Assembly (NCBI GenBank): GCA_947650365.1
Contig: OX393549.1
Span: forward strand, 96,702,014-96,766,013
Origin: Chamaelirium japonicum
Lineage: Eukaryota; Streptophyta; Magnoliopsida; Liliales; Melanthiaceae
Reading direction: 5' to 3'
Length of the DNA: 64,000 nucleotides
The position numbers were made by a program, and so were the translations under genes. Positions 4,001 to 55,503 of the stretch are shown here, piece after piece; within the stretch, counting starts at the first letter, position 1, and the number at the start of each line of letters is the position of its first letter. A model generated the notes under the pieces. It worked only from the letters and a program-made list of their open reading frames with translations, had not been told where the DNA came from and did no database searches.

Positions 4001-5079
4001 TCTGATGTTTTCCCGTTTTTTTTCCCGTTTTCATCGTATCTTTCTGATTTTTTCCTTTGCCGTTTTTTTCCCGTTTTCCGACTTGGTAACTATGGTTTCC
4101 TCAAGCTACCTTCAATATTTTACCATCTGTGTGATTATTTCTGGATTTTTTTGAAGATCTCTATATTTGTCCCACTAGGGTTTCTTCTGTTAAGATATGG
4201 TTTCATTTGGTAGAAGTTGTCTAAAATGACTGGTTCATCTTACAGTAGGGACCCACCCTTGTGTTCATTTTTGTCAGAACTTTCTGGCTAGCTTATTGAG
4301 ATTTTTCTTGATGTCCAACAGATTATAGAGGAGGGTCCAATCACGGTAGCACCTCTTGAGACAGTGAAGCATCTTGAGCAGGCTGCAAGGAGGCTTGCCA
4401 AGTGTGTAAACTATGTTGGTGCTGCTACAGTGGAGTATCTGTACAGTATGGAAACTGGTGAATACTATTTCCTAGAACTAAACCCACGATTACAGGTTTG
4501 TTTGATTTTTCTGCTACACTTTGGCTCGTACAAAATCTTTCTTCTCTTTCTTAAAAGAAGTCCTTTTCAGGTGGAGCATCCTGTCACTGAGTGGATAGCT
4601 GAAATAAATTTACCAGCAGCTCAAGTTGCTGTGGGGATGGGAATACCTCTTTGGCAAATCCCAGGTACGAAAAGTTTTTAAAAGATGCTTAGTGGAAGGT
4701 TTATTTATATTCTATTGTGCGGTTTACTCTTGCTTTATATGCTTCTAATCTCTAGAAATTAGACGCTTCTATGGAATGGAGCATGGTGGTGGGTATGATG
4801 CTTGGAAGAAGACATCTACTGTTGCAACTCCGTTTGATTTTGATAAAGCAGAATCTGTGAGGCCAAAAGGCCATTGTGTAGCTGTGCGTGTAACTAGTGA
4901 GGACCCAGATGATGGTTTCAAGCCTACTAGTGGGAAAGTGCAGGTGAGATTTAACCCGCATGGGAGGGTGCTTACAATGCCATAGACATAGGTTAATGAA
5001 TTTAAGCTTGATTGATCGGTTACTGCAGGAGCTGAGTTTTAAAAGCAAGCCAAATGTATGGGCTTACTTCTCTGTCAAG
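1074..5079 (+). CDS. ACC1: Homomeric acetyl-CoA carboxylase, biotin-carboxylase region only (partial gene)
   Basis: Eukaryotic-type acetyl-CoA carboxylase makes malonyl-CoA from acetyl-CoA; this N-terminal part carboxylates biotin using ATP. Nine exons read without a break: 1074-1449 (ATG at 1102), 1532-1738, 1848-2009, 3049-3141, 3569-3664, 4322-4495, 4571-4664, 4756-4943 and 5029-5079, together 471 codons. All have GT-AG borders. Visible motifs are [16 protein letters not shown], the ATP-grasp glycine loop [10 protein letters not shown], and [13 protein letters not shown]. Plant ACC is about 2,250 residues, so the end of the carboxylase domain, the biotin carrier and the carboxyltransferase are absent: after 5079 no further exon is found before a new ACC leader begins near 5484. 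The family assignment is very firm. That the copy is truncated rather than a working gene is inferred; a misassembly is the main alternative. Confidence 0.93.
2461..2506. repeat. Two tandem 23-bp units in ACC intron
   Basis: The unit GACCCAAGATATATCAATCT plus TCC occurs twice back to back inside the long ACC intron 2010-3048. The rest of that intron holds no exon that I can recognise. Confidence 0.8.
3677..4094. mobile_element. hAT-type MITE in ACC intron
   Basis: The ends are inverted repeats: CATAGTTACCAAATCGG on the left and the complement of CATAGTTACCAAGTCGG on the right. The element is flanked by a perfect 8-bp duplication GTTTCCTC (3669-3676 and 4095-4102), which is the hAT signature. 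It is 418 bp, AT-rich, has no coding capacity and contains internal self-similar stretches around ACGCGTTT. The insertion lies only five bases past the GT donor dinucleotide that ends the exon at 3664. Confidence 0.88.
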
Positions 5080-7748: not shown

Positions 7749-9516
7749 CTAGTAGAACTTGCGCAGGTTGGTTGCATTCCACGGCCTTGCTAGCCCGTCG
7801 CCATCTTGAGTCTTCAAACGGTAGGCTCCATTCTTTCCCATACCATCAACGATGTATGGCCCTTCCCAGGTAGCTCCCAGCTTGTCACTTCCCAACTCCT
7901 TAGTATTATCGAAGACCTTCCGCATGACCAGGTCCCCTTCTTTGAAGATTCGCCTTCTGACTTTGCGGTCATACGCCCACTTAATGGCCTGATGATAGTT
8001 GGCTAAGCGCGCTCTCGCTCTTTCCCTCTTTTCTTCCAGCAGGTCTAGGCCATCAAACAGGAGTTTGTCATTCAGCTCCGGGTCGGCAGCTACGACTGTT
8101 CGCTGTGTTGGCACCAGTGTTTCCGTTGGCAGGACTGCTTCAGAGCCGTAGGTAAGGCTAAACGGGAACTCTCCCGTCGGTCGCTTCGGTGTCGTCCGAT
8201 AAGCCCATAGAACTCCGGGTAAAGCCTCTTCCCATAAACCCTTCTTCTGCTCCAGCTTCTTCTTCAGTATGTCTAGAATGGCGCGATTCGTCGACTCTGC
8301 TTACCCGTTGCTCTGAGGGTACCGCGGTGTAGAGAATAACAGCTTGATGTTACTGGCGCGCATTGACTCCGCATCGAATTGTCGCCCGTTGTCTACAACA
8401 AAAGCCCGCGGCAGTCCGAATCGACAGATGATGCTGCTCCATAAGAACTTTCCTACTTGAACTTCTCCAATCTTCAGCAAAGGAATTGCCTTCACCCACT
8501 TGGTGAAGTAGTCGGTGGCGACGAGGAGAAACTTCCTTCGGTTGGGCGACGTTGGGAAGGGGCCCAAAATATCCAACCCCCATTGTTGGAAGGGCCAAGG
8601 GCTGGATATTGGGTGCAGCTCTTCTGCCGGTTGGTGTATGGAGGGAGCATGCTTTTGTCATTGCAGACACCTCTTCACATACCCCTCCGCATCCGCTTCC
8701 ATGGTGGGGCCAGTAGTAGCCCTGCAGCTTTATCTTCCGCGCCAGAGATCTTCCTCCGGAGTGATTCCCGCATCCTCCTTCATGTACCTCCCTCATAATT
8801 TCTGCTGCTTGCTCCTTCGTGATGCATTTGAGGTACGGTCCACCGAACGAACGCTTGTATAGCTCGTCATCGATAAGGGTGTATCTTGGTGCATGCGTTT
8901 TGGCTCTCCGGGCATCATCGACGTCCTCCGGTAGTATCCCATCAAGTAGGTATTTCTTCATGTTGGCTACCCAATCAGCACCGGCCGCAATAGTATATGC
9001 TGTTTCGATGGCTTGCGTCCTCCCAGCCAGGTGACTATCTTTTGCGTGACCGGCTGTTCGGGGGTCAACGTGCACCTCGATGATGACTCTTTTTTCTTTG
9101 TCTTCTCCGAGTACCGATGCTAGATTAGCAAGGGCATCCGCTTGCTTGTTCTCCACTCTGGAGAACTGGTGGAAGTTTATGTTCTCGAACTTGGCGATCA
9201 GCTCCCCGATTAGCTTCAGGTAAGCTTGCATTCTTGCATCGCGGGCTTCGTATCTACCGGTAATCTTATTGATCACCAGTTGAGAGTGGCCGTAGACCTG
9301 TAAGCTGGTCACCCCCAGCGTTGCTGCCATCTCCAGTCCTGCCAGCATCGCCTCGTACTCAGCTTCGTTGTTCGTCGTCGGGAACAGTTGTCGCACTGAT
9401 TTTTCAAGCTTCGTTTGGTCAGGGGTTACTTGGACTACCCCCACACACTCCCGATCGCGCATGACGAGCCGTCCACGAACAATCTCCAGCCTTCTTCTCC
9501 GTCCTTCCCCTGTCAT
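7749..9516 (-). mobile_element. Gypsy second RNase H and integrase region
   Basis: The first part has NNEAEYEAMLAGLEMAATLG and a later ADALANLAS, the archaeal-type RNase H seen in Tat elements. It is followed by an integrase zinc-binding-like segment, the integrase core (MDILGPFPTSPNRRKFLLVA, FVVDNGRQFD) and a C-terminal domain ending near 7749. Part of the fossil Gypsy element. Confidence 0.82.
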
Positions 9517-9671
9517 GTTGCCGCATCGACTCCCACGGGTCGACCGACAGCTACCGACAGGTCTTCTAACGTCTCTGGCACCGTTGCAGTGTCTTCCGCC
9601 GGGAAATCACTGAGGAAGTCTGCAAGTGCTTGGCCCTTGATTGCTTTCCGAGGTACGTACCGAGGGCCAAA

Positions 9672-10966
9672 CTATTGCAGCTCCGCTGCCCACTTGCTTA
9701 GCCGACCTGCTCGAGTAGAGTTGTCCAGTACTTCCTTCAGAGGGTGCTCGGTGATGACCTCGATGGGGTGGGCGACGAAGTACGGGCGAAGTCTCCTTGA
9801 CACATACACTAATGCTAGGGCCACTTGCTCGATCCGCGCGTACCTAGTTTCAGCCGATGTCATGATGCGGCTGACATAGTAGACAGGCCTCTCCACTCCT
9901 TCACGTTCGCATATCAGTACAGCGTTGATTGCTGCCTTCGATACCGAAAGATATACCCCCAGCGTTGCACCAGGCTGGGGGCTGTCAAGATAGGGGGTTG
10001 GCCAAGGTACGTCTTCAGCTCCTGAAATGCTTTTTCGTAGCGTTGGTCCCAGTCGAAAGGTGCAAGCTTGCTCAACCTTTCGAACAGGGGCCGACACCGG
10101 TCTGAGGACTTGGATATAAAGCGGTTGAGGGCGTTGATCCGTCCAGTCAGCTTCTGGACTTCCTTTCGTGACTTGGGTGACGGCATCTCCTCCAAAGCTC
10201 GGATCTGCTCAGGGTTGGCCTCGATCCCCCGTCGGGTGACCAAGTAACCCAGAAATTTTCCCGACGTCACGCCGAAGGCGCACTTGGCCGGGTTCAACTT
10301 CATGCTATACCTCCGCAGGGTTGCGAAGGTTTCCTCCAGGTCTTGCATATGCGCCTCCTTCGCCTGGCTCTTCACAAGTAAGTCATCGATGTAGACCTCC
10401 ACGTTCCTTCCAATTTGGTCGACGAACATCTTATTCACCAGCCTTTGGTACGTCGCCCACGCATTCTTCAACCCGAATGGCATCATCTTGTAGTAGTAGA
10501 GCCCTCGACCCGTGACGAAGGTCGTGTGCTCCTGGTCCTCTGGATTCATGGGGATTTGGTGATAGCCCGAGTACCCGTCCATGAAAGAGAGCCTCTCGTG
10601 TCCCGCCGTTGAATCTACCAGGGTATCGATGCGTGGTAGCGGGTAGCTGTCCTTCGGGCATGCCTAGTTGAGGTTTGTGAAATCGATACAGACCCGTATG
10701 GCTACAGACTTCTTGGGGACGGCGACCACGTTAGCGATCCACTTCGGGTATCGAGCCTCTCGTATGATGCCCGCTCGTAACAACTTTTCTACCTCCACGT
10801 TGACAGTTGCTGCTTTCTCCGGCGCTAGCGACCGGGGCTTCTGGCGTACAGGTGCAACTCCTTCTCGAATGTTGAGGTGGTGGCAGGCTACCTCGGGGTG
10901 GATGCCTGGCATGTCTTCAACTGACCATGTGAACACATCCTGGTTTGCCTTGAGAAATGTCGTCAT
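9672..10966 (-). mobile_element. Gypsy reverse transcriptase and RNase H region
   Basis: The reverse-transcriptase core shows YSGYHQIPMNPEDQ, TFVTGRGLYYYKMMPFGLKN and VEVYIDDLLVKS (the YIDD active-site box). The first RNase H follows with DNSTRAGRLSKWAAELQ near its end. Part of the fossil Gypsy element. Confidence 0.85.
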
Positions 10967-10990
10967 AGCCTCGGCATGATGCTTTGGCAG

Positions 10991-12208
10991 CTACGACCCG
11001 AGAAAGGTTATCTTCGGATGACCCGCTTCTCCTAAGTCCACGGGCATAATCGGCTCAACGACAGGTAACTCCTCCCACTCCGTGTTTAGGTCTGTCATTG
11101 ACTTCTTCGACTCGTCCGATTCTTTAGATTCAACCGGTCGGTCGGTCTTCTGCGGGTGCGCTGACCCGTTCAGCTCTTTACCTTCAGCTGACAGGTCAGT
11201 CTCCATCGGGTCGCTCGGATCAGTTAGCTCTTTAAGTTCAGCTAACTGACCAGCCCTCTTCAAGTTCCTCGACGCAGTCAGTTCCTTACGTTCAACTGAC
11301 TGGTCGGTCTTCTTTGAGTTTTCCAACGCCATCAGTTCTTTAAGTCCAACTGACAGGTCGGTCTTCAGTAGGTCCCCTGACACAGTCAGTTCTTTATGTT
11401 CAACTGATAGGTCGGTCTTCAGCAGGTCCCCCGACACTATAAGTTCTTTAAGTTCAACTGACAGGTCGGTCTTCTGAAGGGCTTGGCCTCCTCGTGCTCC
11501 TACGCTTGATCCGGTGAGGTGCTGAAACGTTGGAGTTTCTTGACTCCGCTTCGTAATCCAGAGGTTGAGGATGTCCAACTCAGCTCCGTCTTCACCTGGT
11601 TCTCCTCCCTCGATTTGGCACATTGTCTTCAGATGGATGGCGCTAAGCTCGCACTTTGCGGCCGAGGACTGGTCACCTCGAATGCTCATCACGCCCTTGT
11701 CGGTCCAAAACTTCACTACCTGGTAGGCCGACGAGCGGACCGCATCCAAGTGGTGGAGCCACGGTTTTCCAATGATGATGTTGTACGCCGAGTGGGCTTC
11801 AATCACAATGAATCGGGTAAGATTGGTGAGATGCCCTGTTGTGATCGGGAGAGAGATCTCACCAACCACCCTGGCAGCCTCTCCCGTGAAGCCAGTTATC
11901 TTCGACAACGATTCAGTCATCTGCCCGCGATCTAGCTGCATGGCGTCGAAGGCGCTGAGAAAGAGTACATCTACCGAACTCCCGGCATCGACCAGAATTT
12001 TCTTCTCCAGGCAATTTACTATCTGCAGCCGTATAACCAGAGGATGGTTGTGAGGCCTCTCTATCCCGACCAGATCAGCCGTCGAAAACTGTATTGCAGC
12101 TTCCACTCTTGGCTCGGGGCGAATGACGGGGTCGAGCACCACATGGTGAACTTGCCTTGCTTTCTCTATGCGCCACACCTGACGATCAACGGAGTTTGAT
12201 GATGGCAC
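10991..12208 (-). mobile_element. Gypsy protease region with long repeat tail
   Basis: The N-terminal half carries the aspartic-protease signature ILVDAGSSVDVLFLSAF and is the gag-pol protease of the fossil. The C-terminal half is a run of about seven 20-residue units related to KTDLSVELKELTVSGDLL, which is unusual for this position. Part of the Gypsy fossil. Confidence 0.8.
11090..11480 (-). repeat. About seven degenerate 60-bp units in Gypsy
   Basis: On the plus strand the units share CAACTGACAGGTCGGTCTTC followed by a variable part and GTTCTTTAAGTT. They encode the acidic/lysine-rich 20-residue repeats next to the protease. Confidence 0.8.
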
Positions 12209-12309
12209 AGGGCCATGGTACCCGTAGACTGCGTCTACCTCTCGGATCTGGTGTCTTTCTAGCGGAGGACCCGGTAAGCGCGGTGCCGTCGCCCCTCGCT
12301 GGACTTCCC

Positions 12310-14097
12310 CTACAGCCTTAGTCTCCTTACGTTGAGGGAGGCCATGAAGCAGCCAAGGTGGCCGGCCTTAATGAGATCCTCAATATGATGCTTGAGCGCC
12401 CGGCACTGCAAGGTAGTGTGGCCTTGGCCTTGGTGGTACTCGCAAAACCTTGATGCATCTCTGACTCCCCTCTCTCCGGGCTCAAGCGGTTGCGCCCACT
12501 TGAAGTACGGTTCACCCTTGATAGCTTCCAAGATCTGGTCTATGGGGGCGTTCAGTACCGTGAACTCCCTATTCCACTTCGGCCTCGCTGGCCTATCTTG
12601 CCTTTGCCGCTTCGCTTCATGCCGTGTCGCCTCCCCCTGCTGTTTGTTGACGTTCTTCACGGCAGCTGGCTTGGCGTAGTTCTGGTGCGGGACCCTGGTT
12701 TCCACTGCCTTCCTCTTGCGGTCCGCGTCTTCTATCTTAATGTACTTCTCAACGCGCCGTGACAGGTCGTCGATCGTCTCCGGGGTTCGCTTGATGAGTG
12801 ACGCGTTAACAAGCTGGCTGGGCTGAATAGCGTTCTTGAAGGCTGCAATCACCATACGATCATGCCCGTCTGTGTCCGCCAAGCTCAGGTATTCAGACCT
12901 GAACCTATGGTAGAATTGCCTTAATGTCTCCTTCTGGGTCATACTCATCCCGAAGAGTGACTCCAGAGTCTTCAGCTCCCGGCGATTGCATCGATATTGG
13001 TCGATGAACTGCGTGCTCAGCTCCGAGAAAGAAGAGATGGACGAGGGCCTGAGCTTGTGGAACCATTCGAGGGGTGTTCCTGACAAGCTGTTGGCGAAGG
13101 TCCGGCAGAGGATATGATCATTCTTGTGGAGGACCAGAGCATCCCGGAAAGCCAGTACGTGCTCCACCGGGTCTTTCGACCCGTCAAACTTGGGAAGGCG
13201 TGGAGGATTCCATCCCCGAGGGAATGACTCCTGGAGTAACTTCTCTACAAGCGACGACCGTGCGGCTTCTCGGATGGCGACTTCCTTCAGTCGATCGGGA
13301 GCTCGGACCCCCGGTCGGTCTCGCTGGATTCCTTCTTGATCCCCGAGTCGCTCCGACGCATGTACCCGAATGCGCTCATGTACGCTCCTCCGACCAGCAG
13401 AGTGAGCCGGCTGCCGACTAGCCGGCGTCATCCGAGTGTGATGACTATCACTCGGTTGACGATGATGTTCGTTGTCTCGTTTCGGGCGGTGAGGTTGTGC
13501 TGAATCCGTCTTCGAGTGATGCTTGGAGGCAGGCAGCTGTCGGGGGTGTGCCCCGAACCGGGACCAGACATCTGAGCGTGCCGACGCCGCTCGAGCGTGC
13601 TTGTTTCTTTCCGCAGGTTCCGGGCTACTCGAGTCTCGCCCGTCGGGATTCGCACTTTGAACCTCCACCGAGCGATTAACTCTGACCTCCACCTGAGGCA
13701 GTGGTTGCGACTGCACTTGCCCTGGTGGGGCAGCTTGAGTAGGAAGGCTCTGTCCCGCTTGGGCCAACATGCCCTGGTTGAGTAGACCACCCGTCGGTGC
13801 GGCCCGCACGAAGTCACGCAACTCCTCATAGTTGTGCTGCATTGTCTGGAGCTGGGCAGTGAGAGCTTGTTGGGTCATCATCATGGTAGCCAAAAAGGCT
13901 TCTGATAGTCCTGCTAGAGGGGCCAGGGTTACTACCGAAGCTTGACTGGACTCCCCGACTCCCAGTATGGGATTCACCAGTGGGACCGCGCACTCCGAGT
14001 TCATTAGTGGTTGCCCGACGTCATTTGCATCTCCGAGTGGGGCAGCGTCGGATGGGAGCTGCGACGTCGAGCGGGTACGATACGGTTCACCGGCCAT
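12310..14097 (-). mobile_element. Gypsy gag region
   Basis: A region of about 595 codons with the retrotransposon gag core: RLPKFDGSKDPVEHVLAF, then LEWFHKLRPSSISSFSEL, then the RQFYHRF-type segment. In such elements Gag forms the particle shell. It is preceded, on the minus strand, by the LTR and primer site. Read here only as a part of the fossil element. Confidence 0.85.
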
Positions 14098-14493
14098 TGC
14101 TCTTCAACCATGCAGTCGTAATGGTAACTTCTAAGTTTACCGATTGATCGACGCCCACGGGTCGGTCGGTCAGTAAACTACGGCAGGTTGTAGGTAGACT
14201 CAAACTTGTTGACACCAACGGGTCAACAGTCAAAGTCCCTAGTAGGAAGTCTTGAAGACCTATCCCACAAACGGCGCCAAGATTGTGGGAGGTTTTTAAT
14301 CGAACCGGGCGGTTCGGGTGGCGAACACAATCTAACACGCCAAAGAGAAGAAAGAACACGGGAATTACGTGGAAAAACCCCTTCTCAACGTCGAAGGGAA
14401 AAAAACCACGGGTGGGGCGAGAATGCACTAAAACATCTTCAATGGTTACAATCTCTCACCTTAACCCCAATTACACCATGAGGATCGGTCTCC

Positions 14494-18835: not shown

Positions 18836-19584
18836 GGCCGAGGTGTTTGTGGCTCCGGAGGAGGAGCCCTCCCCTTTGTTCCTTGTGCCACAGTCTAGTG
18901 GTGGTCTCTGTAGGTGTGCCAGTTGTGGCACTGTTGTCTGTTTTTCACCGGGCGGCGGTCATCTTTCCCCACCTACTGGTGGTTTCCTATGCTGCGCCGG
19001 CATATGGCGCCTCCCGGAGGCCAGTTTGTGACCTCCCCTCTGATAATACCAAAAAAAAAGAAGGTGTGGTTCTGTGCCAGTGTTGCTAGTTGTATTGCTA
19101 TGATGTGTTAGCCGGAACTTATTCCCAAGTTCCTAAATGGCGGAAGGAACCACTGGAATGGGTAGGTGGATTTGTTGAGTCTCTCATCTTCTTTGGAGGT
19201 ACTAGTTCCATCCATACTTCAATTACACTTGGGGTTTTTTTTTTTAATGCCCTCTTGATTTCTACCTTGTTTTGTTAATTTTTCATTTCTCCAGTAATGA
19301 ATTTTATTTTTACATGGTCATAGTTAGCCATATCGTATTATTATTATTATTATTATTATTGGCACGAAACTTTATCTTGTTTCCTTTTACTAAAGATCGA
19401 AAAATGATTTCGTTGTAGTGAATTTTATTTATTTATTTACTTATTTATCATCCTTCTTGTTTGGCTTCTAGAATAACCTTAATTATTGATAAATTTTGTA
19501 AAATGTTGCTGAAACTATTGAAGGCCTAATTTTAGGAGTAAAGCTGAAATCTCGATCTTTTCGCTTCGGGTGTAAAACATGTTA
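18836..19584. other. Unassigned DNA right of solo LTR
   Basis: The first 400 bases continue the GC-rich segment split by the solo LTR. The rest is AT-rich with an ATT microsatellite near 19337-19360. No coding feature is supported. Confidence 0.4.
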
Positions 19585-20300
19585 GGGTCTGTTCTTTTAG
19601 TTTCCTAGGAAATAAAATAAAGGAAACAATTTCTGCATAAATTCTTTCCATACCACTAAATTTCCGTTGTTCTTTTGCAGGAAAATAAAGGGAAGAAATC
19701 AACCACAATGGAAATCTAATTAGATTTCCTCTGTTTTTTATAGCAGAGAAACGAAGGGAAGAAATCAAACAGTTCAGCCTGATAACCACAGGCCTCACCA
19801 TGCAGGACTAATGATTAGCAATGCTCATGATGGACAGTACTGGATTAATCTTCAAAAAGGCAACAAACTTAAGTTTTGGCATAGCAGCTTGCACTTTTCA
19901 GACCATTTAAAAGCACAGAACTACAACAGTGATCACAAAGCAAGCAATGTAGCCATCATATACACAATGATCCCTGAACATACACTCCCTACCAACCAAG
20001 TTGCCGAACAGACAGAACCCTTCACGCTATAACATAATAAGATAATAATTTACCAATTAGCACCAAGGACAAACATAATACACATCGTGTAATACACCAA
20101 TAAGAAATATAAGTTTTTCCTCAAAATAAGTTATCAATTCCAACAAAAAAACAGATACCATAAGTATGAAGGCATGTAGCTGCTTACAAATCTTCCTTTC
20201 AATTTTAAGGACATAAAGACAAAATTACACTAGTTTCCTCCAAAGCAATCAGTTTCCTTCCACTTCTTGTTGTACGAAGTGAAGAAACACTCATCCAAGT

Positions 20301-20505
20301 TTAACCCACCTCGGGTGCGGTCAGCACATTGATGTTTACATCCCTGAACAGAGAAAATCAAAACCAATCACCTAAGATTTAAAACCACAAAAACAACAAG
20401 TGTCATAAAAAAAAAAAGCTCATACTTTCTTAGAGCTGTATCCATGAGAGACTCTGGTGCACAGTTTCTCATCAACGCAACCTCAAGGCCGATCATCTTC
20501 CGGAT
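20301..20505 (-). pseudogene. Unidentified captured exon pair (gene 3' end)
   Basis: Two exon-like blocks, 20505-20426 and 20343-20301, have GT-AG borders and join in frame to IRKMIGLEVALMRNCAPESL, then MDTALRKDVNINVLTAPEVG, then TAA. It looks like the C-terminus of a conserved protein, but I do not recognise the family. It lies downstream of the transporter pieces on the same strand, inside the Harbinger element. Confidence 0.5.
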
Positions 20506-20717
20506 CTGATGGAGCATAAAGATCTTATGTCAGAGGATAGAAAATCAACATCATTGAAATCCTATACGCACAACTTTAACGACGAGGTTCCACTAAAACA
20601 TTGACAAAAAAATTCAATTGACCGTCAACCTGACATCACCCTCTAACATTGGTTGGAAACCTGAGTCACCTGACCAAGACAGCTTGGCATTGTAGGCCTA
20701 CCATGCTGATACATTAC

Positions 20718-21640
20718 CTTACACAAGCTCCAATAATCATTGGCACAACACTCAACTGGAAAGCCCTACGTCGCCCGATCCCATCCATGATCACACCACT
20801 AAACAAGCATCCAACAAATGCACCACCTAAACACATGCTCACCACAAGTCCTGCATCCCACCCCAACTCAGATAACAAGAATTAGAAGTAGACAAAATTG
20901 CTCACAACTAAAGCAAAGTTAAAATTTTTTTTTTTAAAAAAAAAGAAACTCCAATCGAAAAACTACTACCTTCCGCCATGGTGTTCCCACTAAATCCAAG
21001 ATCCAAAGAAATGCTTTCGAGCGGTTCATTAACAACCCTGCAATGAAATCCAACAAAAATAAAAGATTTACGCCTCCCTTCCGCTTCCAAAGATCAATAG
21101 AAGTAAGGGAGCCCTACGATCAGTACGCACCCAATATGATAGCCGAATAAGAAGGATGTGATGATCGCAACGCACACATGCCGCAAAGAGGGCCTCCATG
21201 GAGGAATGTCATTCTCTTGCCCCATTCCATTCAGCAGACATTCTAAGATTCGAAACTCATCAGTAAAAACTCAACTGCCAATCTCTACATAGCAGCCACT
21301 GATCATAACCCAATACAGAGATAAAATATTTATGCAAAATAAAAGGAACCCATGTGTCCAAACACCCGAAGAATTGAACTTCCACTGCATCACGGATCAC
21401 ACCCAGTTCCTCCGGAGATCTAAAGCAATCACTCCAACAACCCACTTCGAAAGATCAGTAGACATGCAAACCCAGAATTTTTTTAAAAAAAATCAGCAAT
21501 CACGCTACCTTGATCTTGGGTTCTCATAGAAGACCCCGGCCTTTTAGTAGAGGAGGGAGAAGATACAAAATTGAGAAGATCATTGGTAGCTGAGAGCGAA
21601 CGTGAGGTGAGATGATCCTCCTCTCGGATCTGGCATGCAA
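20718..21640 (-). pseudogene. Captured plastidic glucose transporter 2 exons
   Basis: Exons with intact splice borders are at 21242-21131 (ends SFLFGYHIG), 21037-20970 (VVNEPLESISLDLGFSGNTM) and 20850 to about 20718 (LVVSMCLGGAFVGCLFSGV, then GIGRRRAFQLSVVPMIIGA). Joined in phase they give the first two membrane helices of the sugar-porter MFS family. The pattern GYHLGVVNEPLES plus GRRRAFQL is that of plastidic glucose transporter 2. A segment 21640-21509 ending SSMRTQDQ before a GT may be the N-terminal exon. The ten remaining helices are missing. It lies inside the Harbinger element, same strand as the transposase. Confidence 0.88.
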
Positions 21641-21792
21641 CATGAATTATTTTGAACCAACTTCCAGCAAGGTTCTGAATTATTTTGAAACAACAGTATC
21701 TAATAGCGAAAGTCATATATCGCATGCAACATGAGAAAAAAAAAAATTATGAACAAAGGACTACCCTTGGGATAGTAACGTTTAATATATAC

Positions 21793-21989
21793 CTTAATAG
21801 ATGAGACCATAGCAATTGCCTTCTTCACAGTTTCAGGGCATAGATTGCCAAGAACACAAAGCTGAAATTACCTAATAAACATGTTTTGTAAATAAGATTT
21901 TACTTCAGAGTTCAGACAATTTGATATCCAACTTGATCAGAACGAAATTCTATACCTCAAATTCAGCTAGTTGGTTCCTGCTTAGTATT
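21793..21989 (-). pseudogene. Captured RNA polymerase II subunit RPB4 exons
   Basis: Two exons with proper borders: 21989-21956 reads ILSRNQLAEFE and 21861-21793 reads LCVLGNLCPETVKKAIAM and five more residues, joining in frame. This matches the C-terminal core of RPB4, the Pol II stalk subunit (family consensus ...LSRHQLTEFELCVLGNLCPE...). Only about 34 codons are present, with no N-terminus or end. It sits inside the Harbinger element, same strand as the transposase, between ORF1 and the transporter pieces. The identity is strong because the motif is nearly invariant. Capture by the transposon is the inferred origin. Confidence 0.85.
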
Positions 21990-22350
21990 CTGATAAAATG
22001 AATTAAGGAATTACAACACCGATGTCCAAAATAAGTCAAAAAGACAAATAAAGATAGAAGATAAGTTAGAATTGCAGAGAACCAGAAAGCTTAGACTTCC
22101 CACTGTTTCAACTAGCTTGCAAATCTGAAATTGGTTCCGAAAGAAAATATTTGGATCACTTGATTTCTCAAACGTTTCACATATTGCATTGACTTCTCAA
22201 ACCAATAGGCATGTCTAAGAGAAAGCTGACAGTTTATTTCTAAAAGCAAAATAGAAACATAAACCAAATACTTCGACCTAACACAATAAAGTCAAATGTT
22301 TATGACCGATTTTATGTTACTTATTACAAATTAAGAACTTTTCGATCTAG

Positions 22351-23313
22351 TCATTGCCTCCGCTTGTGAATCAGTAAAGTATAAAAAAATATGGCCTTCG
22401 CCTTATCATTACTGAGAAACTCTACACACTCTATTGCTTCATCTTCAGTTAGGCCTTCCACTTTCAAGATCTCCTCCCAGATGCGATTGATGTCAAGAGC
22501 TGGGCATAAATTGTCAATAGCTTGAGTCATTAGTTGAATCCTCTGGTCCAACATATTATTTTCATTTTTTCATTTTTACTCTTTCTCTTCCGCTTACTTA
22601 AGGCTAAAGCAGTAGCAGACGATGATCCAGGTGCACGTGTCGGTGCCGGTGTAGGTGCAAGTGCAAACGAAGGCAAAGGCAAAGCTGCAGAGGAAGGGAA
22701 TGGCTCAAGATCATCATCAGCAATGTCATGAATACCATAACCAAACTGAGTATCCTCATCTACTGGGTTGCGTTGTGGGCTTTAATGCTCTATATCAATC
22801 AAAATGGCATCATGTCCTATTATGGCACGAGAACCGGTTGCCTGATCATTCCCAACGATTTGTGATATTTTATCAAAATCAATTATTGCCTTATGCCTAA
22901 ATTGTATGGCTGTGGGGTGACTACAAAAAAAAAAAAATTAGTCCCATGAAAAAGTAAAATATTTAGAATTTTAAAATTAAAATATTTACCTTCAAATATT
23001 CAGTCCATGTGATGTCATCAGCCTCTATCATCTTTTTGGCATCGTTACACCCGAACCCGCTTTGATTGGTCAAAGTAATTATAGCATTGTACCAAGCTCT
23101 TCACGTTTTTGTCATGTTCTTTAAATTTTTCTTTGTCATTTGAATATTTGTTTTTTCTCCTATGACTTTCACAACAGCTTGATATACGTAAGGCTTCCAA
23201 CCATTGTCAGCCTTCCCCCCCTTTTCATACTCCGCCATAAATGCATCCATGCATAGACGGTCCATCTCAGGAGTCCAGACAATATAGTTTTTCTTTTCTT
23301 TAGGCAGACTCAT
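22351..23313 (-). pseudogene. Harbinger ORF1, Myb/SANT-like DNA-binding protein
   Basis: The upstream part (23313-23101) begins MSLPKEKKNYIVWTPEMDRL and continues with AFMAEYEKGGKADNGWKPYV, the Myb/SANT-like (Myb_DNA-bind_3) fold found in the accessory ORF of PIF/Harbinger elements. It normally helps import the transposase and bind the ends. The C-terminal part (22554-22351) has IWEEILKVEGLTEDEAIECV and a short basic tail. The frames between are not continuous, so introns or decay separate them. The protein was likely functional only when the element was young. Confidence 0.7.
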
Positions 23314-23762
23314 CCTAAAATGATTACTTTATTAGAATAAAAGCACAAATATCATATGCATATGAAGAAAAATGCAATTATTGAATATTTAAAGATTAAA
23401 CAAGAGCACAATGTTAACATCCATAAAAGTAAAATATCGACAGAAATATGAGCAGTAATATGATCCGTGACTCAATTATTGAATTACAATCAATGCCCAT
23501 GACCATAGTCCAACCACATATCGGCAGCAATATGGTCCCTCATATTGTCCCATGCATTATTTTTTTCAAGCAATGTAATATCCTCCAACGTGCCCCCACC
23601 CCCAGGAGGAGAGTCATCATCTATAATAATGTCTGCCTCCTCTTCTAATAAATTAGTGGAATCTACAGTTAAGATAAAGTTATGCAGCGCACAACAAGCT
23701 AGTACAATCCTTCCTTATACATCAATATTGAAAAAAGGTTATGTCCTTAGTATAGCCCATCT

Positions 23763-24821
23763 TTACTTCAACATACCAAAAGCACATTCAACAATATTAC
23801 GCATTGACGAGTGCCTGTAGTTATACAACTCCTGTGCTGTTGCGGGATTGTAGCTACGACGACGCTCTGATCTATGATACTGTATTTGTCGGTATGGTGC
23901 TAAAAAGTCAGGATAATGACTATAACCATCATCAACTAGATAATATTTTTCTGTATATTTAGATTGAAACAATATTATTAAAAAGAATTAATGTTATTTT
24001 TTAATAATTTCTTAGTAGGTACCTATAAGCATATATTAAAATCATATGTAGTATATCAGTTATTACCTGAAGGTATAACCAGCTTAATGGGCACATCTCT
24101 TACAGCTGATGATAGTACCTTAGCATCGCTGGCTGAACCCTCCCAACCGGCCAAGACATATGTAAATTACATATCGAAACCTACCGTCCCCATTACGTTT
24201 TGCGCAATCCTATGTTTCCTTCTTCTATATCGAGGTTGATCCTCAAGTTTGACCTTTGCAAGAATATATGTACCATTAATTGCACCAATTGCATCCTATA
24301 TTAATTTATGCATACAATATAATTAGCAATCAAAAATTTAGATGTAGTAGTAGTTTATATAAATTTGGGTAGAAAAGACAAGTTACTCGAAAGAAATGGT
24401 GCTAGGACCTGAGGGTAATCCCACTAGTCGCTGGCGTATTAGGGTCGGGTTGCTTGATGACGTCCATATAAAGTTTCATCACAACGTTCAGAATATTCAG
24501 AAAATGACGATGAACTGTAGACAATGAACGACTAAAGTGGAATGCTACCGATCTCAACCTGTCGTCATGTCTGAGTATATTGAAGAATATAGCAACTTGT
24601 TCATCCATTTCCATATTTTTTGTAGACCGTAATCCCTTTGACTTCAAAGCTTTGACTAATAACTCAAATGTAGGCTGATTGACTCGTAAAAGATTATGTG
24701 TATCTTTATTTTTCTCACGCAGCAAAAGATTGAGATATTTTTCTCTTCGTTCGTATCTATCTTGCTGTAGTTCTTTTGGTATGTATTGTTGTCGTTTATG
24801 ACATAATACCAATTTAAGCAC
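23763..24821 (-). pseudogene. Harbinger transposase (DDE_Tnp_4), inactive
   Basis: Three exons are visible on the minus strand: 24821 to about 24402, 24295-24067, and 23950 to about 23763. The N-terminal helix region holds VNQPTFELLVKALKSKGL. The second exon begins DAIGAINGTYILAKV and contains LAGWEGSASDAKVL. The third has LVDDGYSHYPDFLAPYR and SSMRNIVECAFGMLK. The family catalyses cut-and-paste with a DDE triad. Here the first Asp, normally in IDGTH, is Asn (INGT); the second Asp and the Glu are kept. There is also an in-frame stop in the second exon after VGFDM. The protein is therefore very likely dead. Confidence 0.88.
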
Positions 24822-25493
24822 TACTAATCATATGGTACAAGCACCGACAATGGCTTGTAGTGTAGCTTGGTGTTCCATCTCCATCTACGTTATTAAATTT
24901 ATATAACAATGGTTAGCATACAATAATTAATAGAATGCGTTTAATATAACTATCTACGTTGAATTAACAGTAAGACAAAAAACAGGTTAAAGATCCTCTA
25001 TTTCTTTCTTAAACATCAACCAATGAAAAAAAAATGATTGTAGCATCTAAAACACATTTTAAAGATCCCTAATTTTGTATGATATATATATTTAGGATGT
25101 TTTCATCTTCATTAGATCCAACATAAACATCACAGAAAACCTCGAATCTAGATTAACAAAAAGTCAATATGAAAAAACAGGGCATCCATCAATTTCTATA
25201 TTAAAAAAATACAGATCAATCCAAAGATTGTTCCATCAATTTATTGTCCGCAATAGGTATTAATCCATGTATAAAAAACCGAGGAGATGTTTCAACCTCG
25301 ACATTACTGATTTAATCGCTTCGCATGCAATTATATATTTATTCCCCGGATTTATGTTACCCGGATATGTCGGGTGGATCAAGTAGGTAACAAAATACTT
25401 GCATGCCTACAAAAAACTCATTGAGCATGGCAGTAAGGATGGTTGTAGAGAGTGTCGGGCAGTTGAAAGCTTACTACCAAAAAAAAACTCATT

Positions 25494-25632
25494 GTTGATT
25501 GTTCAAAGCATTGTACAAAAAAAAAAATAGCCCACTGTTGACTACTTGACTGTTCAAAGCATTGTACGAAAAAAAAATAGCTCAACGAGTCACCGTTGAC
25601 TGTTCAAAGCATTGTACTAAAAAAAAAAATAG
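25494..25632. repeat. Three ~50-bp units in Harbinger 5' region
   Basis: TTGACTGTTCAAAGCATTGT followed by AC and an A-run then TAG recurs at about 25496, 25547 and 25596. These could be transposase or ORF1 binding sites in the subterminal region, or simple tandem slippage. Confidence 0.7.
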
Positions 25633-26462
25633 ATTTTCTTTCAAAGATTTGCCTCCTCTGTGAATCTGGACTTTAAAAAATCAGCACAACAGTGACAACA
25701 CTACAACAGTATTGTGAATCAGGCCTCGAATGCAACAGACCAGTTGTCTACACGAGTGCAGTGCATCCGAGGCCTGACCCGTCACTCTAGAAGAAAATAA
25801 AAATAAAAAGGGGCCTGGGGGAGGGAACATAGCACAACAGTCAACGGGTAAATAAAAAACAGAGAAAAACAATGACAGCAGAATAAAACAATGACCTCTG
25901 CAGTGCAATTGCAGAAGTCCAATGACAGCAGAATAAAAAGAAAAAAGAAAAAACAAGGGGGGGAAGAAAAAATCAATACCTGAAAGCAGATCGGAGGGGA
26001 TTGGAGGAGGTCGGAGGAACCAGAGGAACACCATAGAGGCGGTTGCAGGCTGCAGCACCCGGAAGAGCTTTGAGGAGGGCTAGGAGGTCGGAGGACCACC
26101 GGATTGGGCGGAGCCGGAGGGCACAATGGATCGGGAGCAACCTTCCTCACGTGAGCAAAAATCGCCTTTGCCGTCAACGCGATGACAGAGAGAAAGCCAC
26201 TTTCCAAGGAGATGGTTTCCTTGCTCGGCAAGGAACTTTTTCAGCCGAGAAATCTTCTTTCCGTGATATCAGGCGCAAAAGTACGAGAGAAATTCGGGCT
26301 GAAACCCTATTTCTGTTCATTAATAGGTTTCCGTCCGAATTTTCATCCCAAAAAAACAGAGCCTTAGTGTAAATTTAAGTATTAGCTTTGTTTGCTCCCC
26401 TATTATCAAGTAGCTCGGCAGCATGTCTTTCAACCCTCTTCAGGTACAAGAATGCTTTTAAT

Positions 26463-26921
26463 TAGGGCTGGCAATTTCGGACCAGACACGGCAGACCCGA
26501 CACAAAGTTAGCGGGTCTAGGTCATGGCTAAACGGGTCCAGGTCGTAAACGGGTCGACACGATAGACCCGTTTAATAAACGGGTCAGGTCCGAGTTTAGG
26601 GTCTAGATACGGTAGACCCGGGAAGTCCCGTTTAAAATTCAGCGGGTTGGGTCTACCCACAATCCGATACTGTAATATATAGTATCAGCGGGTCTATCAG
26701 GTTAGGTCGGGTCGAGTCGGATCGGGTCAACTGAATAAACTCGTGTGGTCTAACGGGTCTTATCGGGTCTACCCGTTTATAAACGGGTCAGGTACGGGTT
26801 TAGGATCTAGACACAATTAGTTATACGGGTCGGGTCCGGGTCTAGGGGTTTTGGACATGACCCAAAACCCGAAACTAGACACAACACGAACCTGACCCGA
26901 CACGACCCATTGCCACCCCTA
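26463..26921. mobile_element. hAT-type MITE rich in CGGGTC
   Basis: It starts TAGGGCTGGCAATTTCGG and ends with the complement of TAGGGGTGGCAATGGG. The flanks are CTTTTAAT (26455-26462) and TTTTTAAT (26922-26929), an 8-bp duplication with one mismatch. The 459-bp interior is packed with CGGGTC/GACCCG words and has no coding potential. It lies 99 bp beyond the end of the Harbinger element. Confidence 0.75.
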
Positions 26922-28120: not shown

Positions 28121-29080
28121 CTACAATTGCCTAGCAAAAGGGCACCCGAGCAGCAGGTGCGACGCTGTCTCCTCCTCCGAGGCGCAGAAAGTACACGAGG
28201 CGTCCGACGTCTGGGGGTGATTCCGCCTCAACAAATTCGCCTTCGTTAGAATCTTGTTCCTCGAAGCTAGTAGGGAAAACACCTGAACCTTCGAGGGGGC
28301 CTTTGTCCTCCAAATTGCCTTCGACGGTTTATGTCGTTGAAGTCGAGGAAGCAGATGCTCATAAAACGATCTAACGGAGAAAACCCCTGAAGAAGTGCAG
28401 TTCCACCGGACTTCATCTCGCGACGTCCTGAAGGAAGCCGCCTGCAGAATAGTGGTAAGATCCTGCATCTCCCGTCGACTCTCCCGGTCTAGCGGCGCCC
28501 CTAGCTTTATGCTCCAACCCATCGAGCCATTCCTTCTACAAGCTTGGGAGCGGACGTAAGCGCCCTTACTCCGGGCCAAGGAGAAGAGCGATGGAAAGAG
28601 CTGCTCCAACGGCCTGGTCCCAAGCCAAGTATCCTTCCAAAATCTTATATCCCGACCATCGCCTAGAGTAAGTATGGTCGCCTCCTTGTAGAAGTCTTTG
28701 ACCCTCAGAATGCCCCTCCAAAAATGAGAAATTCTCCCCGAGACCCTACCTCTCGCTTGCAAAGGAGAGAACCTCTTGAAATATTTCGCCAGAAGAACAT
28801 CTCTCCAAGATCCACCCGAACCTTGTTGCAGCCTCCACCACCATTTCCCCAGCATCGATATATTGAACCTGCGCAGGTCTAAGACCCCCAGGCCTCCTAG
28901 CTTCTTTGGCAGACAAACTTGGTCCCATCTCAATAGATTGTAGCCTCCCGTGTTGACCCCCACACCACACCAAAGGAAGGATCGCCGTATCTTGTCGATC
29001 CTGTCTATCACCCAAGACGGCAAGTAGTAGAAGGAAAGGTAGTAAGAAGGAATCAAAGAGAGAACTAAATTCACCAGCAC
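28121..29080 (-). pseudogene. LINE ORF2, C-terminal part with zf-RVT
   Basis: It reads KIRRSFLWCGVGVNTGGYNL near the start and ends with TKANLLRRNHPQTSDASCTF and HLLLGCPFA. This is the RT-associated zinc-binding domain that closes plant L1 ORF2. The following 28009-27824 block (IVWVIWLERNNRIFNGKS) is the extreme C-terminus in another frame. Confidence 0.85.
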
Positions 29081-29113
29081 GAGTCTGCCACCTGAGGACA
29101 GAAAACGACCCTT

Positions 29114-30178
29114 TCAACCCTCCAATCTCCTCTCGATCTTCAGAATCAGCTGCTCCCAATCCTCCCGCCTAAGAGCCTTATCACTGATAGGCAATCCCAA
29201 GTATTTCATTGGCAAAGTAGCTTCCTTACAATTCAACAGTCTAGCTAAACCCTTTCCTGCATCCCCCGTGCCAATGTAATACAGGTTGCTCTTCTGGAAG
29301 TTAATCTTCAGGCCTGACGTCAATTCCAGCCCATACAGAAGTATCTTGAGCGAGACCATCTGGAAAGGGCAAGCCATGGTGAATAGGAGTGAGTCGTCTG
29401 CATAATGCAAATTCGAGGTGGTCCAACCATGCCCGCCCACTCCCTTCACAAGACCTTCAGCGTTCGCCTTGCGAATCGAGGCATCAAAAGCATCGACTAC
29501 CAGAATAAAAAGATACGGTGAAAGGGGACAACCTTGCTTCAGGCCTTTGTAAACCTTGAAGTCCTTACCCTGTTCCCCATTGATAAGGCAAGACAGCTTC
29601 GAGGAAACTAAAATCTCTCTGATCCAGCCCACCCAATTGCTAGAGAAGCCCTTAGCCTTCAGCAAATCAAGCAAAAATTCCAATTTGATCTGGTCGAAAG
29701 CTCTCTCAAAGTCCAACTTTAGCAACACCCCTTCTTCTCCAGATTCGCGTAGGTGAAAGATAGTCTCATGAGCCGCTGCCACACTGTCCAGAATAAATCT
29801 CCCCTTGATGAAAGCTGTTTGGGAGGGGGAGACCAGCAAAGAGATGTTGTCCGCTAGACGATTGGCTAGGACCTTCGAGACGATCTTATAGAGGCAATTC
29901 GACAAAGAGATCGGCCTGAAGTCTCGAATAGCTTCTGCACCAGATTTCTTAGGAAGAAGGATTATCCAGGAGTGATTCAAGTAGTGAAGATGTACCTTGC
30001 CCGAGAAGAAGTCTCTTAAAAAATGGCAAAGGTCGCCCTTTAGCATATCCCAGTACTTCTGGTAGAAGGCCATAGGGAACCCATCTGGCCCTGGAGCTCC
30101 ATCACCTTTGGACTGAAAAACCGCTCTCCGGAATTCCTCGTCGTTGAATTCTGCGTCAATGCTCGTGTCACCATGCAA
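29114..30178 (-). pseudogene. LINE ORF2, reverse transcriptase
   Basis: It contains GPDGFPMAFYQKYWDMLKGD, DFRPISLSNCLYKIVSKVLA, the GLKQGCPLSPYLF box and the catalytic YADD in NLHYADDSLLF. All are diagnostic of non-LTR reverse transcriptase, which copies its RNA at the nicked target. The frame is open for 354 codons but is cut off from the endonuclease upstream. Confidence 0.92.
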
Positions 30179-30899
30179 TCTCTAGAAATCCATGCCGACC
30201 CAGTCAAACGAGACCCCTGTGGCTCCTTCTGTCTCCCGGAAGGAGCTCTTGAAGAAGGAAGTGGCTGCCTCCAGGATATCGGAAGTGGCAGTCAACGATC
30301 GCCCCTCGTGCCACAGAGAAGTCAGAAAGTTATTCCTTCTACGGGCATTGGCCACCTTGTGGAAATAGGCGGTATTCGCATCACCCAGCTTGACCCACTG
30401 CTCCTTCGATCGTTGCCTCCACATCTCTTCCTCCTTCCGCACGAGAAGGACCAGATTCTCATTCAGCTTCTTCAACTCCGCGGCCTCCAGCTGCGTCAGA
30501 TTGGCAGATTCTTCCCGAACTTCAAGGGACTGAATTGCTGCCAAGGTAGAGGATTTCTGCCGCAGTACATTACCAAAATGGTCCATGCTCCAACACAAAG
30601 TTTCCTCTTGATAAACCTGAGCTTGCTAGTCAGGTTCAAAGCCGAGTTATCAAGGTTGCCCGCTTCCTCCCACCATCAAGCCAGCAGCTCCTGGAAACCC
30701 TCCTCCACCGACCACATTAGCTCAAACCTAAAGGGGGGCACACTGGAGAAATAGAGTCGGTTGAGAGTAGAATTAGGGCATGATCGAACACGCAGGAAGC
30801 CAGACCTGACTGAATCGAACCGGGAAAGCGGGAGTCCCAGTCCGCAGAAATCAGGAACCGATCAAGCATGGCCAAAATAGGGTCTTCTCTCTTGTTACT

Positions 30900-31454
30900 C
30901 TAGGTGAAGGTGTGGCCTGTTAAAGGAAGATCTATAAGCTCCTGTTGCCGGATGAAGAGGGAGAAAGCTCTCATAGCGGAAATGTCACCACCACTGCGCA
31001 GCGTCTCTCCCGACCCTCTCGTGACATTGAAATCCCCTGCGACCACCCACGGGCCAGGAAAGCTCACCCGGAGCGAGGACAATTCGGTCCAGAAGTCGTC
31101 ACCTCTACTGTGATCTGTAGGGCCGTAGACCGAGGATATCATCCACTCCTCACCGTCCAGCCTGTTCTGTAAAATAAGAGAAAGGGAGAAAACTCCAACA
31201 ATCGTATTCCACAGTAAGAAAAGGTCATCGCTGTACCCTACCAGAATACCCCCTGAAGCTCCTGTAGCGTCTTTCGCTTCCCATTTAGCAATCTTCTTCG
31301 TACTGAGAGAGCGGAAAAAGTGGCTGGTAGGATTCTCTCGTATCGATTCCTGGACGCAAATGATGTCAACATCGTGGATCGAAGCAAAAGAACTGGCAGC
31401 TCTCCTCTTCTCCGACTTCCCCAGCCCCCTAACATTCCAAGACAAAATCTTCAT
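30900..31454 (-). pseudogene. LINE ORF2, AP-type endonuclease
   Basis: It starts MKILSWNVRGLGKSEKRRAA, the usual N-terminus of plant L1 ORF2, and shows the catalytic CVQES (Glu) and VVAGDFN boxes. The enzyme nicks target DNA to prime reverse transcription. The frame ends before the RT domain; 30598-30182 in another frame carries the linker between them. Confidence 0.9.
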
Positions 31455-31654
31455 AGAAAACAACCCTGACTCCAAACAACGCTCCACCAAACTCCGCCAC
31501 AACATCTTCCTCAGGACGAAGCCAACTTCGCTCTCTTTTCTTCCATGGCCCTGATAGAGTCGAGGAAAAAACGGACACCATCCAGTTCTGGAGCAGTAAT
31601 AAAACCACATCTCATTTGTACTCTAGGTGAGCAAGCAGTAACAAATGCAAAATC

Positions 31655-38167: not shown

Positions 38168-40908
38168 TTAGCACAAGAGAATATGCCACATCTCTAGGAA
38201 GAGAGTAGAGGTCTTAATGTAAGATGAGATTCTACCTAGTTTGAACTTTTCAGACTTTGGTACTTGTGTGGACTGCCTCAGAGGGAAGATGACTAAGCAG
38301 AGAAAGCTCACAGCTACCAGTGCTTCAGAGCTCTTAGAGTTGATCCACACAGATATTTGTGGTCCATTCCCAGTCAAAGCTCTTGGTGGTCAGAGTTATT
38401 TCATCACGTTCATTGGCCACTTCTCTAGATATACCTACGTGTATCTTCTCCACCACAAGTCAGAGGCTTTGGAGGTCTTCCAGACATACCAATTGGAGGT
38501 GGAGAAACAACTTGATAAGAAGATCAAGGTAGTACACTCAGATCATGGAGAAGGATATTTTGGAAGGATGAACCAGAGTGGTGTGAATCATGGCCCTTTC
38601 TCTAAGTATCTGAGGCAGCAGGGGATTGTTCCCTAGTATACCACACCCGGCACTCCTGAGCAGAACGGTGTGGCAGAGAGGAAGAACAAGACGTATCAGG
38701 AGGCTGTTCATAGCATGATGAGTCACTCTTCTCTTCCAGAGAAGTTTTGGGGAGAAGCTTTGAAGATAGCGGTTTATATTCTGAATCGTGTGCCTTGCAA
38801 AACTGCCCCAGAAACCCCTTACAGGAGATGGAAAGGTTCAGCTCCATTTGCATGTTTGGGGTTGCCCGGGAGAGACTAAGCTCTGTAATCCAAAAATAAA
38901 GAAACTTGATTTCCGCACAGTTCGATGTTTCTTTATTGGCTATCCTGAGAGATTGAAAGGTTTTCAGTTCTACTGTCCTTCCAGACCATTGGAGATAGTG
39001 GAGACCAATAGAGCTACATTTCTGGAGGATGCAGAATTCAGTGGGATCCAACGACCATTTGATACTCTTTTCAGAGAGAACTCTTCGGAAGGTGTTGTGC
39101 CAGCGCCATTTTTCCCAATTATTCAGCCAGACGTTATAGCAGATACAACTCCAGCACCTGCTGAGATGGTGGCTGAGGTTGACCCACTACCAGTTTAGGC
39201 TGTACCGGTTCTAGATACTCTAGTAGAGCCAGTTCAGCCGAGAAGGTCAGATCGACAGCGTAGGTCAGCTATCCCAGACTATTATGAGATATATTTTCAG
39301 GAGATTCAGAGTGAGGGATATGATATTACTGACCCTACTTTCTTCCGTGAAGCCATGGGTTGCAATGAATCTCGACAATGGCTGGAGGCCATGAGAGAGG
39401 AGTTGCAATCTATGGAAAAGAATCATGTTTGGGATCTTATTGTGATATCAGAAAACTGGAAGGCGGTGGAATGCAAGTGGATCTTTAAGACCAAGAGAGA
39501 TACTGATGGCAAGATCGAGAGACTCAAGGACAGACTGGTGGCTAAAGGTTTCAGGCAGAAGGAGGGTATTAATTTTGGCGAGACTTACTCTCTGGTTTCC
39601 ACTAAGGATTCCTTAAGAGTGATTATGGCCATTGTAGCCTATCACAACCAGGAATTGCACCAGATGGATATTAAAACAGTATTTCTGAATGGTGATCTGA
39701 CAGAGGACATTTACATATCACAGCCAGAGGGCTTTGCAGTCAGTGGGAGAGAACATCTGGTTTGCCAATTGAGGAAGTTCATTTATGGGCTGAAGTAGGC
39801 TTCCAGGCAGTGGTACCTGAAGTTTGATCAGGTTGCTATAGAGTATGGTTTCCAAGAGAATATGGCTGACAGATGCATATATCTGAAAGCCAGTGGGAGC
39901 AGGTTTGTCATACTCATCCTCTATATTGATGATATTCTCTTGGCGAGTAATGACATTTACATGCCCCATGATGCTAAGCACTTCTTATCGAAGAAATTCG
40001 ATATGAAGGACATGGGTCAAGCAGACTATGTGCTTGGGATCAAGATTCATAGAGATAGAGCAGCAGGGATTCTAGGACTCTCGCAGACAGCTTATGTTGA
40101 GAAGGTCCTGAAGAGGTTCGGGATGGATAGGTGTGCTCCGGGTGAGGCACCAGTACTGAAGGGAGATGTATTTTCCCAGGATCAGTGTCCCAAGAATCAG
40201 GCTGAAAGGAGTCAAGTGGATACATATGAGTACGCTTCCATTGTGGGGAGCATCATGTATGCTATGACTTGTATTCGACCAGACATCAGTTTTGCTGTTG
40301 GAATGTTGGGTCGTTATGTGCAGAATCCGGGTATAGCTCATATGTGTGCAACTAAGAAAGTTCTGAGGTATTTTCAGCACACCAAAGAGTTCATACTTAC
40401 CTACCGGCAGGGCAGTGAGCTTCAAGTGATTGGTTACACCAACTCAGACTTTGCTGGTTGTAAACACATCATGAAATCCACTTCGGATTATGTTTTTCTA
40501 ATGGCAGGAGGAGTTATTTCGTGGAAAAGCTCCAAACAATCAATTGTGACTGACTCCATTATGCATGCAGAGTATATTGCTTGCTATGAGGCTACAAAGC
40601 ATGCTCTTTGGCTGAAGAACTTCGTTGGAGGCTTAGGCATTGTGGATTCGATCTAAAAGTCTTTGCCAATTTTCTGTGACAATGAGACTGTTTGTCAGCA
40701 TGTCAAGAATGAGAAGATTACCATACGCAACAAGCACTTGGATATCAAGTATATGCTTGTCTGCAAGAAAGTCAAAGGGGAAGTGGTGAAGATCCCACAT
40801 ATTCATACAGAGCTGATGGTAGCAGACCCTCTCACCAAGGGACTTGCACCAAAGGTTTTCCAGAGCCATGTAACCCGTATGGGCTTGATGGAGTCCTTGT
40901 ATCAGTAG
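38168..40908 (+). mobile_element. Copia pol region
   Basis: The integrase core is at 38240-38900 ([39 protein letters not shown]). Reverse transcriptase is at 39355-40200 (WIFKTKRDTDGKIERLKDRL; ILYIDDILLASND with its YIDD box). RNase H is at about 40420-40908 (SDFAGCKHIMKSTSDYVFL). Integrase before reverse transcriptase is the Copia order. Read as parts of the fossil. Confidence 0.9.
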
Positions 40909-55272: not shown

Positions 55273-55503
55273 TGTGTATAGGACATATCACCCTGTAGGT
55301 GTTAATAGGAAGCATGCATTGAAAATATCAATTAATTTAAAAATTATAGTTCACAATATAAAATTATAAATCCAAACCCTTTAACCGTAACCTTCAACCC
55401 TAAGCAAATACAATTTTATTATATTTTCTTTCATCCTAAATATGTAAATGATATTTGAGCGCTAATGGTTTATGTTGTTATGTTAATGAAGGTACCTAAC
55501 GTC

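Follow-up and report, generated by a model that had tools for sequence, protein, structure and literature searches.

The element and its captured gene pieces

The window analyzed here is a stretch of 64,000 nucleotides from the 1.52-Gb genome of Chamaelirium japonicum (C1:96702014-96766013, where C-numbers denote contigs of the same genome and L-numbers denote fetched loci), and a single element spans positions 19585-26363 of it (Table 1). A preliminary description had proposed that this is a PIF/Harbinger transposon in which inverted termini with TTA duplications enclose a transposase and ORF1 together with exons of RPB4, of a plastidic glucose transporter and of a third gene. The termini and the core within them are as it had described: the terminal inverted repeats, GGGTCTGTTCTTTT on the left and GGCTCTGTTTTTTT read inward on the right, agree at 12 of 14 bases and are bordered by TTA on each side, while the transposase matches DDE_Tnp_4 at 3.4e-7 and ORF1 matches Myb_DNA-bind_3 at 2.2e-7, both above the Pfam cut-off. 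PIF/Harbinger elements are recognized by a 3-base duplication (mostly TTA or TAA), inverted termini, a DDE_Tnp_4 transposase and a Myb/SANT-like ORF1, and the assignment to this superfamily is made because the ends, the TTA, the transposase and ORF1 occur together here. The ends are not a chance pairing, since two other loci (L029 on C12 and L030 on C7) start with the same left end, and this motif also terminates L030; at L030 both ends are present, with the first 14 bases identical and with TCA duplications on either side. Parts of the final 150-210 bases of the window element match L018, L030 and L032, and right ends are seen at L016, L018, L030 and L032.

The window element is a full-length copy that is now probably non-autonomous. 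Its transposase is broken by a stop within exon 2, where several relatives have open exons, and asparagine stands at the presumed position of the first catalytic aspartate; the ORF1 frames of relatives are longer than that of the window copy. The core was also considered as a smaller nested element and rejected as such: among 25 listed of 89 inverted repeats no pair falls at its two edges, its left limits vary among copies, and right-type ends lie approximately 1.4 kb past the core at L016 and L018.

The captured pieces cover 19766 to about 22202, which corrects the span first given, and all three lie on the minus strand, the same strand as the transposase, with the exon/intron structure that had been claimed for them. 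The transporter piece is identified as such by Pfam (Sugar_tr, 4.7e-12) and by a matching gene on C3 that is likely its source, to judge from the alignment, and that further along contains frames resembling later transporter exons (by eye); a close second gene is present on C4. We presume the name pGlcT2, which the preliminary description had supplied and which no search result gives. A 325-base deletion lies inside the piece, with TGCC at both borders (by eye). Two 114-base pGlcT2 5' pieces (window 21209-21322) also occur at 96% on C8 (C8:33038158-33038271 and C8:32904176-32904289) and are perhaps more captured copies.

The third gene can now be named as a PUS1-type tRNA pseudouridine synthase. 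The peptide matched nothing in Pfam, and tRNA pseudouridine synthases are its only matches in the PDB (E of 0.004-0.008). The piece aligns to a locus on C2 at 92-93% across two blocks and at 75% and 89% across two others, and on this comparison the C2 locus is its probable source. It is without 217 bases that are open coding sequence in the C2 gene, and a 1-base frameshift introduces a stop; since the gap removes open coding sequence, we read it as a deletion and reject a lost intron. The piece also shows gaps of about 235 and 460 bases against the C2 locus, which may reflect a change on either side.

For RPB4, two exons are clear and a third is probable. The two-exon translation falls below the Pfam cut-off (0.0056); with all three exon translations joined, the PDB matches are to Rpb4 chains of Pol II (8.5e-5), with the plant Pol IV/V subunit reaching only 0.8. 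The parental-gene search that the preliminary description had called for found a pGlcT2 locus on C3 and a PUS1 locus on C2. Because introns are kept, it was DNA that was copied, and a route through RNA is rejected.

Table 1. Features of the PIF/Harbinger element, in window coordinates.
Feature	Position	Strand	Basis or remark
Target site duplication TTA, left	19582-19584	.	Direct reading
Left terminal inverted repeat, GGGTCTGTTCTTTT	19585-19598	+	Direct reading; identical end at L029, L030
Left element end	19585-19765	.	Common to relatives; no match to PUS1 source locus
PUS1-type tRNA pseudouridine synthase piece: two exons, intron, 3' sequence	19766-20525	-	PDB matches; alignment to C2:22789000-22794500 (L033)
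PUS1 exons	20426-20511; exon start 20343	-	Translation
Sugar transporter (pGlcT2) piece: 5'UTR, exons 1-3, introns	20525-21634	-	94.5-97% to C3:49487000-49491000 (L031)
pGlcT2 exons	Exon 1 21131-21225; exon 2 20970-21037; exon 3 20718-20850	-	Open, with splice borders
Short joint pGlcT2/RPB4	21635-21662	.	Beside imperfect 19-base direct repeat
RPB4 piece	21663-22202 (right limit uncertain)	-	Intron sequence kept
RPB4 exons	Clear 21956-21988, 21793-21861; probable 22173-22201	-	Probable exon by eye, splice borders not clear
ORF1 region	22351-23328	-	Myb/SANT-like domain 23101-23328; frame broken in window copy
PIF/Harbinger transposase gene, three exons	23490-24827	-	DDE_Tnp_4
Right element segment	24983-26363	.	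Among fetched loci only L032 shares it, as far as 25414
Right terminal inverted repeat, inward GGCTCTGTTTTTTT	26350-26363	-	Direct reading
Target site duplication TTA, right	26364-26366	.	Direct reading

The preserved splice borders and open frames had been taken to suggest recent capture. The observation stands for pGlcT2, of which exons 1-3 are open, and fails for PUS1 with its frameshift and coding loss; the suggestion itself is not supported, since the pieces diverge from their source genes by 3-8%, and by more in parts of PUS1, which means that capture is not fresh. Over the 296 bases of the pGlcT2 exons there are 9 replacement and 5 silent differences between the element and the C3 gene (9 and 7 relative to the C4 gene), whereas C3 and C4 differ from each other by 0 and 4, and a ratio of 9:5 indicates that the piece is no longer constrained as protein. 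It could be argued that the captured exons are kept by selection within a chimeric protein that the element expresses, as the three pieces share the strand of the transposase (an arrangement from which, the preliminary description had suggested, chimeric transcripts might arise) and the open pGlcT2 exons retain their splice borders, but these replacement counts, the damage to PUS1 and the broken transposase make such a protein highly improbable.

Shared joints and the route of capture

The joints between the captured pieces are not confined to the window. At L029 the sequence of window 19584-20616 is found in one run, comprising the left end, the PUS1 piece and the PUS1/pGlcT2 joint. At L030 the PUS1, RPB4 and pGlcT2-start pieces occur in a different order between that element's own ends and duplications, and the L030 region has a near-copy on C2 (L007, 98.6% over 3.3 kb), whose ends are not in view; window 21663-21993 recurs in L006/L030 and L007 at 94.6%. 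(In these comparisons matches of the window to the loci are listed from at least 40 bases, or at least 25 in a finer comparison, and flank matches among copies from at least 60.) Captured pieces are thus common to several mobile copies, namely the window element, the C12 insertion, the C7 element and the near-copy at C2, and the fact that the PUS1/pGlcT2 joint recurs in other elements means that the joints moved with the element. This bears directly on the outcome that the preliminary description had named beforehand as its refutation, in which a host locus already holding exons of several genes was hit by a Harbinger insertion, or the termini belong to two different elements. The pieces do adjoin each other, as is possible in a rearranged locus, and no positive support for such a locus was found. 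With the left end, the PUS1 piece and the joint recurring at C12, and the pieces recurring at C7 inside an element with both its ends and again in the C2 near-copy, we exclude this explanation and give it next to no weight.

The central claim, that a PIF/Harbinger element captured pieces of three host genes, is borne out by this recurrence inside other elements. We put a probability of roughly 0.85 on the reading that the window holds a full-length, probably non-autonomous PIF/Harbinger element with transduplicated pieces of three host genes, belonging to a family with a common core and variable flanks, for which gap repair is the most likely route of capture. The mosaics would have arisen as the gap left by an excised element was filled in by DNA copying. 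During this repair the growing strand would have jumped to other places (host genes, other elements), helped by short matches, after which the ends would be joined and later transposition, presumably through a transposase supplied by another copy, would spread the new mosaic.

The patchwork seen at L030 is what is expected from a gap refilled by template-changing copying: the PUS1 segments on the two sides of the RPB4 piece have 33 bases in common (20350-20382), and 57 bases that also lie further along in the same element appear a second time at that joint, at 88%. Short matches are also seen by eye, with about GACA shared at the PUS1/pGlcT2 joint in addition to the TGCC at the pGlcT2 deletion joint. 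Another way to acquire such pieces is for two elements that lie next to each other to be joined when excision goes wrong, followed by deletions, as proposed for Arabidopsis Pack-CACTA elements (PMC13317346). This would account for the capture of long colinear stretches with introns and for several cargoes within one family; it does not easily produce the 33 overlapping bases, the recurrence of the 57-base stretch and the altered order of L030, and it requires one neighbour pair per gene, so we regard it as unlikely.

Several observations weigh against our preferred reading of transduplication by gap repair. Both ends are seen for the window element and L030 only, and source loci are in hand only for pGlcT2 and PUS1, the RPB4 piece being known from protein matches. 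The matches of four bases at two of the joints are weak, and none is present at 21365, the third joint that was read. At this same position the C3 gene contains 115 bases that are absent from the element, so that the donor may have been a different copy or allele; the C4 gene has approximately 5.8 kb there, and the donor may have lacked both the 115 bases and the 5.8 kb. The two copies on C12 (L004 and L005, about 219 kb apart) match at 91% along about 2.2 kb that begins outside the element and runs into it, and since sequence outside the element is shared they represent one insertion duplicated with its region; separate insertions are rejected for this pair, and the alignment points to a segmental duplication on C12.

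Cores, flanks and cargo across the family

To place the window element among its relatives, window 22450-26363 was searched against the genome, and 40 of 157 first-look candidates were scored. Nearly all of 22450-24982 is present in at least 36 places, the window among them. The comparison set consists of the 20 best copies (the window and L010-L028, giving 190 pairs), with approximately 1.5 kb seen on each side of the core. Core divergence among the 19 other copies has a mean of 3.9% (0.1-7.0%), and the window copy differs from them by a mean of 6.6%. The left limit of homology to the window core varies from copy to copy (22025, 22142, 22146, 22197, 22220 and 22247). The family has a conserved core of ORF1 and transposase (window 22220-24982) and variable stretches on both sides. 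These flanks are mosaics; L016 and L022, for example, share 2,716 bases at 99.3%, beyond which only a displaced right module is found among the matches listed.

Thirteen of the 190 pairs have cores less than 1.25% apart. Counting only matches of at least 60 bases at 85% or more, 10 of these pairs have fewer than 200 bases in common in the left flank (of 1250); in the right flank (of 1350) this is true of 5 pairs, and 4 pairs belong to both groups. The flanks also differ in their cargo. For 12 of the 19 loci L010-L028, frames of at least 60 residues were read on one strand in the flank beside ORF1, and for the L029 and L030 stretches frames were taken from both strands with length limits of 45-60; ten peptides were picked by eye for a Pfam search, in which six matched, five above the cut-off and one below. 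The matches are a class I tRNA synthetase at L018 (6.5e-7, above the cut-off; valyl by eye), RCC1 repeats at L020 and L023 (above the cut-off; the two loci share part of their flank), two lipoxygenase pieces at L028 (above the cut-off) and an ABC transporter membrane region at L030 (3.5e-4, below the cut-off; ABC-C by eye), this last being the only one of these copies for which both ends are seen. Peptides from L015, L016 and one L014 frame had no Pfam match; by eye the L015 piece may be PP2C-like and the L016 piece OTU-like.

We offer only tentatively, at somewhat less than even odds, the broader reading that this is a very prolific PIF/Harbinger family in which the core is flanked by two capture regions, with so rapid an exchange of host exons and family modules that copies already differ on one or both sides when their cores are less than 1% apart, which would make the family a large natural record of template-switching capture. 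Several points in the pair counts speak against it. The 200-base limit is exceeded on the left by three of the close pairs (the full 1250 bases in L011/L012, 579 in L017/L022 and 486 in L016/L021) and on the right by eight of the 13. Single copies also recur in the counts, with L010 in two of the ten left-differing pairs and L013 in all four that differ on both sides. L010 and L011 are 99.6% alike over 4.3 kb of core and right flank with a left flank that diverges at once, and L010 may be truncated. With only 1.5 kb seen per side, some flank differences may be due to truncation or nested insertion.

The cores could also have been made alike by gene conversion. In that case the copies would be old elements with unrelated flanks and homogenized cores, the captures would be old and the turnover of flanks slow, and the varying left limits of core homology are what conversion tracts would give. 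This account fits poorly with L016/L021 and L020/L024, which retain long shared flanks along with like cores, and with the fact that flank modules common to copies match for the most part at 90-100%, with a few older ones at 71-77%. We consider it unlikely.

Known systems and surrounding sequence

Capture of gene pieces is best documented in Pack-MULEs and Helitrons. The present family bears on the route of capture in other elements: many copies with near-identical cores carry different cargo, which makes the capture joints readable while fresh, and fresh joints in turn make gap repair and the joining of neighbours testable against each other by counting filler, overlaps and short matches. Such elements matter for annotation as well, as they can yield false gene models (lipoxygenase, RCC1, transporter and similar).

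Gene capture is itself already known for PIF/Harbinger elements, and the family-wide exchange of cargo is the part worth following. One close likeness is to Pifvine-3, a grapevine PIF for which the transduplication section of Benjak et al. (2008, PMC2528002) reports up to 3.5 kb of host exons and introns, some common to several copies. As there, a PIF with transposase and ORF1 carries extra host sequence, exons and introns included, as genomic copies whose source lies in the genome (pGlcT2 on C3 and, probably, PUS1 on C2) and which several copies share. The window element differs in its host plant and genes, in having variable sequence on both sides of the core and in holding three named source genes in one element, and flank differences at under 1% core divergence are not described in that section. 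The Pack-PIF/Harbinger elements of rice and maize that Gisby and Catoni (2022, PMC8903248) annotated likewise have PIF ends and mostly TTA/TAA duplications enclosing coding gene fragments, but the pipeline used there classes elements matching transposase as autonomous or derived. Host coding sequence does lie between the ends of the window element; because transposase sequence is present too, we call it a transduplicating PIF element rather than a strict Pack-TYPE element. Hatvine-6 of grapevine (PMC2528002) also combines a shared transposase and ends with a remainder often unique to one or few copies, though it belongs to the hAT superfamily. Turmoil-1, a Harbinger element of C. elegans, likewise holds two host coding pieces (PMC2572040); it is an animal element, and its pieces sit within long terminal repeats. 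In the open-licence literature, through searches that were not specific for the family, no report was recognized as describing the family of the window element.

Approximately 100 bases to the right of the element, window 26465-26919 is repeat-rich (GGGCTGGCAA ... TTGCCACCCC, with many ACGGGTC units) and resembles a hAT-type miniature element; a 77% relative of this stretch sits approximately 280 bases from the right end at L032. Elsewhere in the window, two exons within 1033-4678 resemble the biotin carboxylase part of acetyl-CoA carboxylase (by eye), and long frames resemble transposon proteins (also by eye) of Ty3 type at 7752-14103, LINE type at 28124-31622, copia type at 38223-40653 and CACTA type at 55459-59064.

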